From an uncultured Verrucomicrobiales bacterium (GTDB lineage Bacteria; Verrucomicrobiota; Verrucomicrobiia; Verrucomicrobiales; Akkermansiaceae), in assembly GCA_937944055.1 (NCBI GenBank), contig CALDZJ010000077.1, positions 1-39,185 on the forward strand: a stretch of 39,185 nt of DNA. The letters run 5' to 3'. Positions 2,014-26,356 of this stretch are shown here, one piece after another. The number at the start of each line of letters is the position of its first letter. Positions within the stretch are counted from its first letter, which is position 1. The notes under the pieces were generated by a model that had not been told where the DNA came from, searched no databases, and worked only from the letters and a program-made list of their open reading frames with translations. A program made the translations under genes and the position numbers.

Positions 2014-4020
2014 TTAACTTTCACTAAGATCGCTCGAACTTGCTCTGACGACTCGATCTACCGGGAGTTTCGTGACGATATTCCCCTTGGAGCCTCGGCT
2101 CTTAACGCCGATTTCACCAAAGACAAAAGGACGAGAAACATTCCGAAGTCGCAGTGCTGGCTTCAAGTGGACCACCACCGCATTCGCCGCGCTCTCCTCC
2201 TCGCTGTCATGGACCGCAAAGTAAATCACGCGGGTCCCCTTCGTGCCCTTCCCCATTGGATAGATTTTATCACGCGTCACTCCGCCTGCTTTGAAACGCT
2301 TAGCGAAGTAGGGCCCATCACGCCCCTCTCGGTAAATCATAGAGTAAATTTTAGGCTCCTCTTTTCGCAGCACTGAGACGTGCACCGGCCGCTTCCCAAC
2401 AAAGATCTTATCCGCCACCTTCGTCACCCGCATCTCCCCATCGAGAGAAAAAATGATGATGTCATCAAGGGTAGAGCATTTTTCCAGCGCCTCTTCTTTC
2501 TTTAGAGAAATACCAGCGAAACCATTCTTGCGGTCCAGATAGAGAGTCTCACTCGCTACCACCACTGCGGAACGCTTCACCACGCCAAATTCGGCGATCT
2601 CAGTCCGGCGCTCCTTACCCTTCCCATATTTTTTGATCAGTGATTTAAAATAAGCGATCGAGTAGCGGGTGATGTTTTTAATGTTCTTTTCCGTCTCTTC
2701 GATCCTCTCTTCTAGCCCCTTAATCTCCTCATCCGCACGGAAGCTATCATACTTGGAGATTCGCTTAATTCGAATCTCAGTGAGGCGGATAATATCATCG
2801 CGAGTCACCTCGCGTTTGAGCGATTTTTTAAACGGCTCCAAGCCTTGATCAATCGCCTCGAGGACCGCTTCCCAAGTCTCGCATTCCTCGATATCTCGGT
2901 AGATGCGATTCTCAATAAAGATGCGCTCCAGCGAGCTGTAGTGCCACTTATCGTTGAGCTCTCCGAGTAAAATCTGCAACTCTAGGAGAAGAAGATCTTT
3001 CGTCATGAAAGCGCAATTTTTTAAGATCTCCGTCACCGGCATGAAGTGCGGACGCCCGTCATGAATCACACAGGAATTCGGCGAAATACTCACTTCGCAA
3101 TCGGTAAAGGCATAGAGCGCTTCACGCGTCATCTCAGCATCAGCTCCGGCTGGGAGATGGACGAGAATTTCGACATTTTCCGCCGTGTTATCCTCGATTT
3201 TTGAAATCTTAATCTTCCCTTTCTCGTTCGCACTCACGATGGAATCCATCACTCCACCAGTGGTCGTCCCGAAGGGGATGGAGCTGATGCGGATCAGCTT
3301 TGCTTTCACCACCTCGATATTTGAGCGCACCCTAACCTTGCCTCCCCGCAGCCCATCTCGATAGTCACTGACATCGATCAAGCCCCCCGTGTGGAAATCC
3401 GGAAAGAGCTCGAAGGCCTGTTTGCGAAGCGCGCAAATGCAGGCTTCGATGAGCTCGATAAAATTGTGCGGGAGAATTTTGCACGCTAAGCCGACGGCGA
3501 TCCCCTCCACTCCTTGAGCCAAGAGAAGCGGGAACTTCATCGGGAGAGTCACAGGCTCTTTATTGCGGCCATCATAACTCCGGGTCCAGTTCGTCGTCTT
3601 CGCGTTAAAAGCCACCTCGAGTGCGAAAGGCGTGAGGCGCGCCTCAATGTAACGAGGCGCAGCGGCTCGGTCTCCGGTGAGAACATTTCCCCAGTTTCCT
3701 TGGGTATCGATTAGCAAATCCTTCTGACCGAGCTGCACCATGGCATCTCCGATCGAGGCGTCACCGTGCGGATGATACTTCATGGTGTTTCCCACCACGT
3801 TAGCGACCTTATTATACCGGCCATCTTCCAGCTCCTTCATCGAGTGCAGAATCCTCCGCTGCACTGGCTTCAGACCATCCCCCAAGTGTGGCACCGCGCG
3901 CTCCATGATCACGTAACTCGCGTAATCTAGGAAATAATCCTTGTACATGCCACCAAGGGACAAGTCGCTCGGAACCACTAAGTCCTTGATGTTTTCTTCC
4001 GCTTCTTCGCTCTCGTCCAT
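2014..4020 (-). CDS. parC: Topoisomerase IV subunit A (ParC-like)
   Basis: 668 residues from an ATG. The N-terminal breakage-reunion domain contains DGLKPVQRRIL, KYHPHGDASIGDAM and DRAAAPRYIEARLTP, where Arg123-Tyr124 is the catalytic pair that attacks DNA. A coiled-coil region lies near residues 400-460. The C-terminal beta-pinwheel is short and ends in a GVKSRGSKGNIVTK-like blade rather than a classical GyrA box, which favours topoisomerase IV over gyrase. The enzyme decatenates daughter chromosomes together with the B subunit encoded at 6308-8161. The segments resemble Bacteroidetes-type ParC. The position equal to quinolone-target Ser80 of E. coli ParC is Ala88 here. A secreted-protein gene separates it from its partner. 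Confidence 0.9.
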   Translation of the reverse strand: MDESEEAEENIKDLVVPSDLSLGGMYKDYFLDYASYVIMERAVPHLGDGLKPVQRRILHSMKELEDGRYNKVANVVGNTMKYHPHGDASIGDAMVQLGQKDLLIDTQGNWGNVLTGDRAAAPRYIEARLTPFALEVAFNAKTTNWTRSYDGRNKEPVTLPMKFPLLLAQGVEGIAVGLACKILPHNFIELIEACICALRKQAFELFPDFHTGGLIDVSDYRDGLRGGKVRVRSNIEVVKAKLIRISSIPFGTTTGGVMDSIVSANEKGKIKISKIEDNTAENVEILVHLPAGADAEMTREALYAFTDCEVSISPNSCVIHDGRPHFMPVTEILKNCAFMTKDLLLLELQILLGELNDKWHYSSLERIFIENRIYRDIEECETWEAVLEAIDQGLEPFKKSLKREVTRDDIIRLTEIRIKRISKYDSFRADEEIKGLEERIEETEKNIKNITRYSIAYFKSLIKKYGKGKERRTEIAEFGVVKRSAVVVASETLYLDRKNGFAGISLKKEEALEKCSTLDDIIIFSLDGEMRVTKVADKIFVGKRPVHVSVLRKEEPKIYSMIYREGRDGPYFAKRFKAGGVTRDKIYPMGKGTKGTRVIYFAVHDSEEESAANAVVVHLKPALRLRNVSRPFVFGEIGVKSRGSKGNIVTKLPVDRVVRASSSDLSES

Positions 4021-4063
4021 CGTTTGTTAAGGAATCTTAAGCACCTGAACACGCCAGCCCAAT

Positions 4064-4091
4064 AAAAAAGGGCAGGAATTGACCTATTCCT
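4064..4091 (-). terminator. Rho-independent terminator after the lamin-tail protein gene
   Basis: Read on the minus strand, a 6 bp stem (AGGAAT/ATTCCT, 6-base loop, 4074-4091) is followed after four bases by six consecutive T at 4069-4064. It sits 30 bp past the stop of the gene at 4121-6199 and before the parC start, so it should reduce read-through into parC. Confidence 0.45.
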
Positions 4092-4120
4092 TGATTAGAG
4101 ACTCAATATCAGCGAGTTGA

Positions 4121-6199
4121 TTATTGCTCCGACAAGCGATAAAAATGCTTTTCATCCCCCTGCGGAAGAGAGGTCGAGAAAGTGAAATTCGTGGATCCAT
4201 CAGGATTATCAGACTCCACGAAGCCCCCCGTAAGATCGAGCCAAGATTCATTATCCCCGAGAGCATCCGAGGTCTCGATTTTCCAAAGCTTCGATCCCAA
4301 ACCCGTGGCCACGATGACCGCAGTGACCCCATCTGCCTCAACAAAGAAATTCACGATTCTCACTTCGTCATACTCCACCGGAGGCTCGCCTTCTCCTCCG
4401 TTCTCGGCCCCCGGCGAGTCAGTCGCGGGCTCCTCTTCTGAGCCAAAGGGCCCAGCAAACCATGCACCAGTGCCGTCGGGAGAACGGAACACGTGAGCTG
4501 GGACAAAGTCAGTCTCAGAAGTGACATCCGCTCCGGGAAACCCGAGCGAAACGGCGTATCCCAGCCCCACCACCGCAGGGGCATCTCCCGGTTCGACGAT
4601 CGAGACCGCATCGAGCACATCACTCCATGGCTGGTTGTCCAAGACGCCATCATTGTCCACGTCAAGGTCCTCATTAGTGGATCCGGTAAAATCGGTCACC
4701 AAGAGGAAAGTCGAAGAATCACCATTCTCGAAAATGTTAATCCCTGCGGTGAAATCCGGAGTCCCTCCCAGGATGTTGTCATTGGCAATTAAGAAGTAGT
4801 TCCCCGTCGCATTGAGGCCCGTGAGTTCATAGGCTCGGTCGATATTCCCTGAGCTATCAGTTCCCCCGCGGTCCCCAATCACAATCAACCAAACCCGATC
4901 AAGCGAAAAATCAGCAGTGGCCCCATAAATCTCCAAATATTCCTCCGTATCAGCTCCCACATTATCAGTTCTCAGCTCGTTAATCACGATAGCCGGTGCG
5001 GTGAAGGCTTCATCATCCGTCACGATCATGTTCACTTCTGCGCTTGAGATGATGGCAGCTGGATCACTCGCCCTTACGGTGACTGATTGCGCTCCATCGC
5101 TCTCCTCATCATTGATCGCGTTCACCACGAAGCTCGCCATCGTCGCACCGGCCGGAATCATCACACTCGCCGGCACACTCAATTCCGACGCATCATCACC
5201 GCTAAGATCGAAGACATAACCTGCATCACTCGGCGCGCTGACCTCGATCGTCACCACTGCACTTCCGCTGTCTTCAGAAATACGAACCGGCTCAGCGGCC
5301 ATCATGATCGTAGGAATTGGCTCTTCATCATCTTCAACAAGCAGCACAAAAGTCCCTGAAAAAATACCCCTAGCCGAGGCCGTAAGAGTGGCGCTTTGCA
5401 CCGAGTCTTGTTCCGTATCATCCACCGCAGTCACCGAAAAATTCGCAGAATCTTGGCCCGCCGCAATCGTAACACTCGCTGGGACCTCCACCTCCGTGGT
5501 GTCACTACTGACAAGATCCACCGTGATCGCCTCAGAAAGATCCCCCGTCCGGGTTACAGTTCCAATCGCGGCTCCAGCTCCCGCACCCTCTGAGAAGGTG
5601 GCAGGATCAACGCTCACAGTGAGAACTTCACCCGCAAAAGGACTTCCATCACTCCGCGTTCCTGGAGAAAACGCTCGGGTTCCATCACCGAGCGCAAGGT
5701 GCTCCACATAGCTCGTTCCCGTCAGTTCAGGATCTAAGTTCAGCGAGGTGTTATTGCCCCCCTCTCCTCCATACTCGAGAGTCACTACGGCCTCGTTACC
5801 CGCGTTCAAAATCGTGATCGTGTCGCCCGAGTTGTTCAGCCCCAGCGTGCCTGAAGACGCAAGCATCACGATCGCGCCCCCGAAGTTCCCGCTCGGCGTC
5901 CCTCCTCCAAAAACGACCAATGCTTGACCGTCAGCCAGCACCGTAGAGCCGGTAAAAGCATGCCTGACCCCCACTCTGTCGCTAATGGCCCAGCCATCCA
6001 GATCGAGTGCCCCCCCACTCGTATTCACAAGCTCGATGAATTCATCCTGCGCACTCGAACCATCTCGAAAACCATCGCCATTCGCATCGCCTAAATCCCC
6101 CGGAGGTGGATCAGCTAGAATCTCATTAATGACAAGCTGCGCCGAAAGACGAGCCGAGAATAAGCTACAAAATATCAGAGAAAGGAAAAATTGCTTCAT
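4121..6199 (-). CDS. Secreted lamin-tail / Calx-beta multidomain protein
   Basis: 692 residues with a signal peptide (MKQFFLSLIFCSLFSARLSA). Immediately after it comes a lamin-tail-like domain, roughly residues 21-150 (QLVINEILADPP, DEFIELVNTSGGALDLDGW). Two Calx-beta-type repeats follow at about 195-390; each has a VPASVTI or VPASVMI strand and ends in the acidic VEDDEEP or VTDDEA. A second lamin-tail-like segment (APAIVINELRTDN, EYLEIYG) and a C-terminal beta domain ending in HFYRLSEQ complete it. Such proteins are extracellular or surface-attached, and Calx-beta units usually bind calcium. No catalytic motif was seen, so an adhesion or structural role is only inferred. The gene lies between parE and parC on the same strand. 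Confidence 0.75.
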   Translation of the reverse strand: MKQFFLSLIFCSLFSARLSAQLVINEILADPPPGDLGDANGDGFRDGSSAQDEFIELVNTSGGALDLDGWAISDRVGVRHAFTGSTVLADGQALVVFGGGTPSGNFGGAIVMLASSGTLGLNNSGDTITILNAGNEAVVTLEYGGEGGNNTSLNLDPELTGTSYVEHLALGDGTRAFSPGTRSDGSPFAGEVLTVSVDPATFSEGAGAGAAIGTVTRTGDLSEAITVDLVSSDTTEVEVPASVTIAAGQDSANFSVTAVDDTEQDSVQSATLTASARGIFSGTFVLLVEDDEEPIPTIMMAAEPVRISEDSGSAVVTIEVSAPSDAGYVFDLSGDDASELSVPASVMIPAGATMASFVVNAINDEESDGAQSVTVRASDPAAIISSAEVNMIVTDDEAFTAPAIVINELRTDNVGADTEEYLEIYGATADFSLDRVWLIVIGDRGGTDSSGNIDRAYELTGLNATGNYFLIANDNILGGTPDFTAGINIFENGDSSTFLLVTDFTGSTNEDLDVDNDGVLDNQPWSDVLDAVSIVEPGDAPAVVGLGYAVSLGFPGADVTSETDFVPAHVFRSPDGTGAWFAGPFGSEEEPATDSPGAENGGEGEPPVEYDEVRIVNFFVEADGVTAVIVATGLGSKLWKIETSDALGDNESWLDLTGGFVESDNPDGSTNFTFSTSLPQGDEKHFYRLSEQ

Positions 6200-23488: not shown

Positions 23489-23491
23489 ACC

Positions 23492-23515
23492 CCCAATCAC
23501 CCAATCACCCAATCA
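23492..23515 (+). repeat. Three perfect copies of CCCAATCA
   Basis: The octamer repeats three times immediately after the stop codon of the metallophosphoesterase gene. It resembles the degenerate repeat inside priA (10105-10137). Confidence 0.8.
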
Positions 23516-23599
23516 ATAACACTCTTATAATCAGTCGATTAAATTCAAATCGAATAAATTCACCTTTTTCTTTGAACAAATCTCGAAGTCTGAGGTCTA

Positions 23600-23726
23600 C
23601 CATCCGTGAAAGCCGCAACCTAGTCGCAGTTTTCATGTAAGGGTGAACAGCAGTTGTCAGCTTCAATTACTTTTGAGGTTGATCGACTCAGCCACAGGGG
23701 ATCTTCGGATCCCCTGTGGTCTTTTC
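23600..23726 (+). ncRNA. Candidate structured small RNA (unknown family)
   Basis: Three adjacent hairpins are visible. Hairpin A (23605-23637) pairs 11 positions including G-U pairs, with one C-A mismatch and a 9-base loop. Hairpin B (23657-23682) is a continuous 10 bp stem, TCAGCTTCAA against TTGAGGTTGA with two G-U pairs and a 6-base loop. Hairpin C is the perfect terminator. A TTGAAC box at 23572-23577 lies where a -35 element would place a start near 23605, though the -10 (TCTACC) is poor. It could instead be a leader of the foldase gene, but the terminator is 180 bp from that ATG. It matches no RNA family I recognise. Confidence 0.4.
23692..23725 (+). terminator. Strong rho-independent terminator with UUCG loop
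   Basis: A perfect 12 bp stem (CCACAGGGGATC/GATCCCCTGTGG) with a TTCG tetraloop is followed by TCTTTT. It lies 204 bp past the metallophosphoesterase stop, far for that gene's own terminator, which suggests it ends a separate transcript. Confidence 0.8.
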
Positions 23727-23905
23727 GCCACGCGGCACTTTTTCTAAGCTCTAAGGCCGCTTCCCGCTGCAAGTCCCCCTTTCTGGAATTTTCCTCCCAG
23801 ATCGTGCGAAAATTACGCCATCAGACTTGCCCCCAGTCCTCATTCCTTCTTAACTCCTCGCGTCTCGGACAATGCTCCTCATTTTGTCCTACCGATCCTT
23901 CAGCC

Positions 23906-26356
23906 ATGATTGAAAATATCCGCAAATACACCGGTCTTATGATCGTCGTTCTCGTCCTCCTCTTCGTTGGGCTCGTCTTCCTCGGTGATGGAGTTAGTAA
24001 CTCCTTCAGCAGCAAGCCCGTCATGAAAGTTGCTGGCCAATCCATCTCCCAAAAAGAGTTCGACCGGAATCGAGCAGTTCTCGATCTCCCCTCATCTCTC
24101 TCCTTTAGCCCACTTCCACGGGAATCACGCGTTCTCGCCAGTCACTACCTTGGCGATTCCGTGATCGATTTCGATCGCGTCAGCCCCGGAGCCATCGTGG
24201 CCCAAATGGGACAATTCCTCCAATCCAGCTCCTCCCCAGATCGCTTCGTCACCAACCGCCTCAACGTCCGTAAAGCGGGCATCGAATACGGCGTCACGCC
24301 AAGCAATGAGGAAGTAGAAAGCTTCGTCGAAAATGTCCTCTTTGCTGATAACGAAGGCAACTACGATGTCGAAGCCTATAACGACTTCATCAAAAACCGC
24401 GTCACAAACCTCGGCGGCACGAAAGGCTTCAACCTATACATCAAAGACCTCCTCACCGCTCAAAATCTCTCCAAACTCCTCGGAGGTGGCATTGCCCCCG
24501 AGATGGAAACCGTAAAATCTCTCTACGAAAACCAGAAACAAGTCATCACCGCCGAGCAGATCATCATCGAGCCCGGCAGCTATGAGTCCAAGGTCAACCC
24601 CAGCGAAGAAGAAATCAAAGCCTTCTACGAAGAGAACAAGGCCAACTATAACTCGGACGAGCTGCGCCGCGTTTCTTACGTTCACATTCAGCCCAATTGG
24701 GAAGAAACTCTCGAAAAAGCAAAAGCTGAAAAAGCCAAAGCCGATCAACTCGCTGAAGAAGCCCGCAAAAAACGTGAAGAGGCCAAAATGAAGGCCGAAG
24801 CCGAAGCCCAAAAGGCCAACGCTGAAAACGCTGAAAGCACCGCAGCCCAAGACCCTCAGACAGACCCTCAGACAGACCCTCAGACAGACCCTCAGACAGG
24901 CACTCCGCAAGCTGATGATAAAATGGCCGCAACCACCGATAGAGAAACCGCGACCGACAGCGCACAGGCCCAAGAAGCCGCCCCTCCAGTCACCGCCCCA
25001 GTTAGCCCAGAGGCCCTTGCCCTCGTGACAAAACTCAAAACCATGGCCGTTTACTTCGATAGCTCCTCCGCCGCGGTCAAAGCAAGCGAGGAAGAAAAAA
25101 TCACCGAAGCTGCGCAAGTCATTCTCGAGTCAAAAGACGTCATGCAAGGACTCACCGTCGGAGGATATGCTGACCTCCAAGGGAACGCAGACTTTAACCG
25201 CGAACTCTCCCTAAAGCGCGCTAAGGCCGTGCGAGATCGCCTCATCGAAAAAGGCGTCCCTGCCTCTCGCCTCACCGTCAATCACTTCGGAGAAGACACT
25301 TCGAAAAGCGCCAAAGAAGACCTTTGGAAAAGCCGACGAGTCGAAATCTCTCTCACTAAGCCCGAGCCCGAGCCACTCGAAGGTGAAGAAGGCGAAGAAG
25401 GCGAGAAGGGCGAGCAAGCCCCCGACCCGAACGAGACCCCAGTAGAGGTGGTCGAAGAGCCCACAACTCCACCCACCCCCCAAGCTCCCAAAGCTCCCAC
25501 TCCCACTCCACCGAGCTCGGCCTTCGATCAGCTCAACACGGTTCTGAGAAACCAAGCGGTCGATGCCCTAGCCCCACAGGTCAATACCTTCTTCCAAAAG
25601 CTGGCCGACAATCTCGGTGAAGACTTAGAAGGAATCAGCAAAGAAGCTGGCTACTCCCTCACCACTACCGAGTTTTTCTCTAAGGAGAATCCGCCCAGCG
25701 AGCTCACGAAGGGCATTCAAGATAGCCCCGTGGGCTCACTCGCCAATGCCATCTTCCTCCTCCCCGCCAGCGGAGACTCGGACGAGAAACTGAGCGACCC
25801 TCATAAAACAAATAACGGCTGGTTCATCATCCGCCTTGATGAAGCGCAGGAATCCGTCCCCCTTAGCTACGAGGAAGCAAAGGTCCGTGTCACGGTTGAT
25901 CTTAAGAAAAAGCTCGCCCGCGAAATGATGGTCGAAGACGCAAAAACTCTGCGCGATCAGCTCGCCGCCGCCCTCAAGGAAGGGCAGACCTTCGAGCAAG
26001 CCGCTAAGGCCTCTGATCTGACCGTTGAGAAAAAACCAAAACTCGTCGCTGGTCAGAGCTTCCAAGGCCGCTTCTTCGGTGACCCAGCCTTCGAGCCTGC
26101 TCGCTCAACCAACCCCGGTGAAATTGCCCCCCTTGAACTCACCCCATCCGAGGAAGAGCCCGAGCAAGCCCTCATCATCTACGTCGCTAAACGCGAAATC
26201 GAAAAAGATGAGCAATACGCCACGCAGCTCGAAAACTCCTTCAGCAATCTCAGCCAAGCCTCACGCCTCGTCGCCTTTGAAAACTGGCTTAACGACCGCT
26301 ATCAGGAGAGCAACGTCGTCCCCCCAGTCCTGAGTGACAACGATCAGGTTCAATAA
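23906..26356 (+). CDS. PpiD-like periplasmic foldase with an internal OmpA domain
   Basis: 816 residues from the ATG at 23906 (MIENIRKYTGLMIVVLVLLF). One N-terminal membrane helix (about 9-27) precedes a SurA/PpiD-type chaperone domain (MKVAGQSISQKEFDRNR, about 38-265). A parvulin-like first strand, ELRRVSYVHIQPN, is then interrupted by a charged Ala/Lys/Glu coiled coil (about 270-312), four DPQT repeats (316-331), an OmpA-like domain (about 370-483) and a Pro/Glu-rich linker (about 484-535). The rest of the foldase follows (ADNLGEDLEGISKEAGY, NNGWFIIRLDEAQES). In the OmpA part, Asp423 and Arg438 keep the spacing of the diaminopimelate-binding pair. It probably chaperones exported proteins while holding peptidoglycan; that combination is inferred. 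The gene for a small TPR protein follows 5 bp later. Confidence 0.8.
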   Translation: MIENIRKYTGLMIVVLVLLFVGLVFLGDGVSNSFSSKPVMKVAGQSISQKEFDRNRAVLDLPSSLSFSPLPRESRVLASHYLGDSVIDFDRVSPGAIVAQMGQFLQSSSSPDRFVTNRLNVRKAGIEYGVTPSNEEVESFVENVLFADNEGNYDVEAYNDFIKNRVTNLGGTKGFNLYIKDLLTAQNLSKLLGGGIAPEMETVKSLYENQKQVITAEQIIIEPGSYESKVNPSEEEIKAFYEENKANYNSDELRRVSYVHIQPNWEETLEKAKAEKAKADQLAEEARKKREEAKMKAEAEAQKANAENAESTAAQDPQTDPQTDPQTDPQTGTPQADDKMAATTDRETATDSAQAQEAAPPVTAPVSPEALALVTKLKTMAVYFDSSSAAVKASEEEKITEAAQVILESKDVMQGLTVGGYADLQGNADFNRELSLKRAKAVRDRLIEKGVPASRLTVNHFGEDTSKSAKEDLWKSRRVEISLTKPEPEPLEGEEGEEGEKGEQAPDPNETPVEVVEEPTTPPTPQAPKAPTPTPPSSAFDQLNTVLRNQAVDALAPQVNTFFQKLADNLGEDLEGISKEAGYSLTTTEFFSKENPPSELTKGIQDSPVGSLANAIFLLPASGDSDEKLSDPHKTNNGWFIIRLDEAQESVPLSYEEAKVRVTVDLKKKLAREMMVEDAKTLRDQLAAALKEGQTFEQAAKASDLTVEKKPKLVAGQSFQGRFFGDPAFEPARSTNPGEIAPLELTPSEEEPEQALIIYVAKREIEKDEQYATQLENSFSNLSQASRLVAFENWLNDRYQESNVVPPVLSDNDQVQ
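24851..24898 (+). repeat. Four perfect 12 bp repeats encoding DPQT
   Basis: GACCCTCAGACA is repeated four times without change, in frame, in the linker before the OmpA domain of the foldase. Perfect identity at the DNA level suggests recent expansion; copy number may vary between strains without breaking the frame. Confidence 0.9.

Follow-up and report, generated by a model that had tools for sequence, protein, structure and literature searches.

An OmpA-like domain apparently acquired by a PpiD-type chaperone in a small branch of Verrucomicrobiota may tie the chaperone to the cell wall

In a stretch of 39,185 nucleotides from an uncultured Verrucomicrobiales bacterium (GenBank assembly GCA_937944055.1, contig CALDZJ010000077.1; the whole stretch is referred to as the window), one open reading frame of 816 codons on the forward strand, without interruption, specifies a foldase-like protein with an OmpA-like domain in its middle. 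The reading favoured here is that of a PpiD-like, probably non-catalytic chaperone for which a recently acquired OmpA module has a good chance of serving as a tether to peptidoglycan. Pfam searches of the protein detected OmpA at residues 383-469 (E=2e-14, 54.1 bits against a cut-off of 27.2), Rotamase_2 (E=2.9e-8) and, at residues 1-55, SurA_N_2 and SurA_N_3. Together with an AF2 model, they agree with the order of parts given in a preliminary description: anchor, SurA-type N domain, strand, coiled coil (one long helix in the model), DPQT repeats, OmpA, linker and the rest of the foldase. The features are listed in Table 1. The four DPQT units (residues 316-331) are encoded by four exact tandem repeats of 12 bases at 24851-24898, which are absent from the only other OmpA carrier detected, L125.

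Table 1. Features of the foldase gene and its downstream neighbour (window positions)
Feature	Residues	Position	Strand	Basis or remark
PpiD-like foldase with OmpA insert, whole ORF	816 aa	23906..26356	+	ORF reading, Pfam, AF2
N-terminal hydrophobic helix, membrane anchor	9-26	23930..23983	+	AF2, sequence
N-terminal chaperone (SurA_N/NC-type) domain	~1-205	23906..24520	+	SurA_N_2/SurA_N_3, AF2, hhalign vs E. coli PpiD
Two strands	212-221 and 253-261	24539..24688	+	AF2; hhalign to E. coli PpiD 181-243
One long charged helix	265-311	24698..24838	+	AF2
A/E/P/T-rich linker with DPQT x4		24839..25003	+	pLDDT <50 at 311-367
OmpA-like domain insert	367-485	25004..25360	+	Pfam core 25052-25312; homology
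Asp423 codon	423	25172-25174	+	inside OmpA-like insert
Arg438 codon	438	25217-25219	+	inside OmpA-like insert
Second linker, with collagen-like motif		25361..25540	+	
Collagen-like Gly-X-Y motif	493-505	25382-25420	+	within second linker
C-terminal half: parvulin-like part and long C-terminal helix (771-801)		25541..26329	+	Pfam, AF2
Rotamase_2	561-659	25586-25882	+	Pfam
Small TPR protein, conserved neighbour	119 aa	26362..26721	+	starts 5 bases after foldase stop

The AF2 model was built on an alignment of 76 rows and reached a mean pLDDT of 81.7 and a pTM of 0.60. Most of the foldase is predicted at pLDDT 82-98 on both sides of an interruption of roughly 280 residues, N domain and C half being mostly above 90; values below 50 also occur at residues 490-520. 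The OmpA part is weak in the full model (10-residue means of 39-89) and came out poorly when modelled alone from two sequences (pLDDT 58); its fold therefore rests on sequence homology, with matches to solved OmpA domains including YiaD (2k1s, E=5.1e-9). The structure prediction suggested earlier as a check is thus confident for the foldase halves, but of low to middling confidence for the OmpA-like elements.

The best PDB match found by Foldseek is PpiD (8zht, the PpiD-YfgM complex of E. coli; E=1.4e-10, probability 1.00). It is the only match with E below 0.001, the next being a PPIase (8hm3), SurA and PrsA at 2.8e-3 and above; TM-scores to 8zht are low over the whole flexible chain (0.23/0.27, rmsd 24.9). 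By hhalign, the relation to E. coli PpiD scored 99%, while the cut-off of the NCBIfam equivalog PRK10788.1 was missed by far (48.3 bits versus 493), and the protein is therefore designated PpiD-like and not an equivalog. A profile of all 76 aligned proteins gave one PrsA match (4.7e-4), and a single-sequence phmmer search with the N part of the closest sister protein matched antibody chains only. Like E. coli PpiD, the protein has an N-terminal anchor helix, a SurA-like N domain, a parvulin-type part and a long C-terminal helix; unlike it, it contains a long linker and an OmpA domain.

Active parvulin prolyl isomerases are recognized by catalytic His residues together with a signature of the GGD[LM]G type. 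Inspection of the 816-aa protein by eye revealed no GGD, and Tyr and Phe occupy the two places where catalytic His is expected. A signature-like pattern was detected in one of 75 relatives (L098), in a context judged not to be parvulin-like, and a looser pattern in two of 37 class-level loci; E. coli PpiD does contain the signature-like pattern. The parvulin region of the preliminary description is upheld by Pfam as a parvulin-like fold, but not as a catalytic site. Chaperone rather than isomerase action is suggested by these residues, and the protein is probably non-catalytic. E. coli PpiD itself is described as working as a chaperone with a dispensable parvulin domain (PMC2956729).

E. coli PpiD is reported to consist of four nested domains, the NC domain enclosing the second, the second the third, and the third the innermost parvulin domain (PMC9643414). 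Judged by alignment and length, the 816-aa protein seems to be one nested layer short of this, and its two first strands would start two parvulin-like layers, a tentative layer count. These strands fit E. coli PpiD 181-243 far better than 222-276 by hhalign (52.1 versus 27.9), which would place OmpA in the parvulin slot. The full-length profile alignment, on the other hand, took the parvulin register of E. coli PpiD. The inner domain scored slightly higher against the E. coli parvulin domain (about 262-359) than against the third domain (46.9 versus 40.9), and the C part alone prefers 391-615 when offered the whole of E. coli PpiD, with a near tie when the registers are offered apart (57.8 versus 56.3). 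The idea that OmpA fills the innermost parvulin nest of a PpiD line shorter by one layer, a wall-anchored holdase having thereby arisen from a chaperone of the prolyl-isomerase type, is put forward as a tentative and rather doubtful refinement.

The OmpA part resembles the OmpA-like C-terminal domains of YiaD, Pal and A. baumannii OmpA (AbOmpA) in its Pfam match and in an Asp and an Arg at the spacing of the diaminopimelate (DAP)-binding residues of AbOmpA; in contrast to these proteins, the domain is located in the middle of a chaperone and not on a lipoprotein, on a barrel or at a C-terminus. GGYAD begins at residue 419 and LSLKR at 434, and Asp423 and Arg438 are indeed 15 residues apart as previously described. 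The genome contains a MurE gene product scoring over the cut-off with the motif DNPR, which we take as a mark of a DAP wall; such a wall is therefore predicted. DAP has been demonstrated in some Verrucomicrobia of subdivision 4, according to PMC5303756, and PMC5974059 describes its binding by the equivalent Asp and Arg of A. baumannii OmpA. From the conserved residues, the insert would bind peptidoglycan and tether the chaperone, the C part of which is presumably placed in the periplasm.

The foldase is not split by the OmpA domain as such. In members of the genus, the chain leaves the fold after strand 253-261 and re-enters near 545 (window protein numbering), and in OmpA-free relatives the same foldase halves are connected by a linker, so that the split first attributed to OmpA is made by a loop present in its absence. 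Besides a charged helix and stretches rich in A/E/P/T, this loop contains a collagen-like Gly-X-Y motif. Its length, calculated as total length minus the conserved part of about 528 residues, is approximately 120-265 residues in OmpA-free full-length members of the genus, linker length being highly variable; full-length proteins from outside the genus have 542-570 aa. Since OmpA-free members possess the loop as well, it probably predates the OmpA domain, which was inserted directly before the Gly-X-Y motif. Of 22 genus sequences, 19 have this motif and three are cut before reaching it; none of 54 from outside the genus has it. It is mostly followed by PAP (L076-L094, L125), and the surrounding linker is poorly alignable.

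For the distribution of the fusion, named genomes were scanned, yielding 76 loci; one Flavobacterium OmpA match was dropped and the remaining 75 were aligned with the window protein. SurA_N_3 is present in all 76 proteins, Rotamase_2 in 68, and OmpA in two, the window protein and L125. Eight of the 75 relatives are cut by contig ends, and five of these eight (L090, L093, L097, L123, L147; 129-308 aa) are too short to reveal an OmpA domain. L125 (identical to L010, the same record) originates from the MAG of another species, comprises 799 aa and is 76% identical; its fusion is also a single ORF, lying on a 164,932-base contig and flanked by the genes that border the foldase in the window as well. 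An assembly artefact was rejected as unlikely on account of this second MAG with its matching flanks.

Among 27 genomes of the genus searched, OmpA was detected in the foldase of two (G000, which is the genome of the window, and G010) and not in 17 (G001, G002, G003, G006, G007, G008, G009, G013, G014, G015, G017, G018, G019, G020, G021, G022, G026). Eight could not be judged, the foldase being partial in G004, G005, G011 and G025 and not among the matches listed for G012, G016, G023 and G024. Of these eight, only G016 has an OmpA domain that exceeds 40% identity to the composite query, and it is encoded by a separate frame of 514 aa. G008 was considered as a hidden carrier and rejected; its two contig pieces share a linker stretch and show no OmpA. 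Two foldase copies (L087 and L091) were found in the MAG G014, for which contamination is listed as 5 and which is possibly a mixed bin. In the window's own genome (92% complete), the three matches to the protein are the protein itself and two OmpA matches, with no second long copy seen.

At class level, 188 genomes were searched. An OmpA profile made in this work, which picks up known positives, gave no match with ORFs of at least 200 aa in 37 loci (the 30 best and seven with long frames, some frames being cut at locus ends), and Pfam OmpA was absent from all ten class-level proteins scanned. In 141 genomes of the order, OmpA and foldase matches occurred together solely on the window's contig, among the matches listed (at most seven candidates per genome).

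The insert could be traced to a donor family. Six separate proteins of the genus (open frames of 491-538 aa) end in an OmpA part with 60-70% identity to it, among them a protein of about 480 aa from the same genome (G000:C94), for which the value is 68-69%. These putative donors (about 480-500 aa) share the motif GYAD or GFAD and a tail of the type LW(K/R)SRRVEIS with the insert. A change from GHTD to GYAD, as noted in the preliminary description, did not take place in the chaperone, as the source family already has GYAD or GFAD. The N part of the donor proteins shows no relation to PpiD; by eye it looks BON-like, which Pfam did not support. The family extends to other genera of the taxonomic family, where 23 of 195 genomes match at E 1e-9 or better, a count that includes any OmpA. 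In a tree of 14 OmpA rows, the donor family encloses the inserts (100/100), which form a pair of their own (87/84). The pairing dropped to 47% with 13 rows (donor set without G024) and 50% with nine, and it was not recovered in a DNA tree of eight rows, which grouped the inserts with a G008 protein (80/90). Transfer of the domain from an OmpA-tailed donor family is well supported.

In a foldase tree of 27 of the 69 usable rows, calculated without linkers and OmpA, the window protein and L076 (genome G013), which lacks OmpA, are sisters (99/97), with L125 next (100/100). This topology is most simply read as a single gain before the three diverged, followed by a loss in L076; two independent gains at one site are less likely. 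Because the nearest sister does without it, the domain looks dispensable and not essential.

Selection on the insert was estimated by comparing its two carriers. They share 87% identity in the OmpA core, where pN/pS is 0.15, against 0.19 for the N domain, 0.21 for the C part, and 0.45 and 0.41 for the linkers, all ratios being rough because 51-76% of the synonymous sites differ. Such constraint could reflect folding stability instead of wall binding. Nevertheless, with the frame and the DAP residues intact despite this synonymous change, it argues against a neutral passenger, that is, a folding OmpA copy taken up by a permissive disordered linker, given no new role and now being lost. The absence of OmpA from the closest sister and from 74 of the 76 aligned proteins, the five short ones included, and the variable linker would suit such a passenger, which we regard as unlikely on balance.

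The genes next to the foldase bear on another possibility, a wall sensor or cargo-delivery device, in which OmpA would place the chaperone at particular wall sites or pass clients on instead of acting as a plain tether. While the long helix and disordered linker would permit the required movement, the neighbouring genes tested do not differ between loci that have OmpA and loci that lack it, and this possibility appears improbable. The 119-aa TPR protein encoded downstream was matched in 22 of the 23 relatives checked and has no membrane anchor by eye; YfgM, the partner of E. coli PpiD, is likewise a TPR protein. In the genus loci checked, about 2.3-2.8 kb separate a phosphoesterase gene from the foldase gene, compared with 0.4 kb in the window (23489-23905). 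The interval of L125, the only one read (2433-4562), contains an ORF of 709 aa that looks thioredoxin/DUF255-like by eye. Finally, the SurA-OmpA-rotamase order as a family conserved across Verrucomicrobiota, in whose favour the second carrier may be cited, is hardly credible with OmpA in two of 76 aligned proteins, in no ORF of at least 200 aa from the 37 class-level loci, in none of the ten Pfam-scanned proteins and, among the matches listed for the order (141 genomes), together with a foldase match on no contig other than that of the window.

As originally proposed, a chaperone of the inner membrane that carries a domain of the peptidoglycan-binding type persists as the best reading, but not as a conserved architecture. 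By analogy with E. coli PpiD, reported to act with YfgM at SecYEG (PMC9643414), the protein would be a periplasmic chaperone anchored in the inner membrane, its fold interrupted after strand 253-261 by the long helical and disordered loop of the genus. That loop would have received its OmpA domain, copied from the C-terminus of a separate OmpA-tailed envelope protein, in an ancestor that this genome shared with two close relatives. There it most likely holds the flexible arm of the chaperone on peptidoglycan, and clients leaving the inner membrane would be met between membrane and wall. No report of a PpiD-OmpA fusion was found in the open-access literature searched. In this small branch of Verrucomicrobiota, a folded domain appears to have moved from one envelope protein into a loop of another. 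The genome still carries the donor family, and OmpA-free sisters provide natural controls. Should the tether prove functional, one could ask directly whether it matters where an export chaperone sits relative to the wall.
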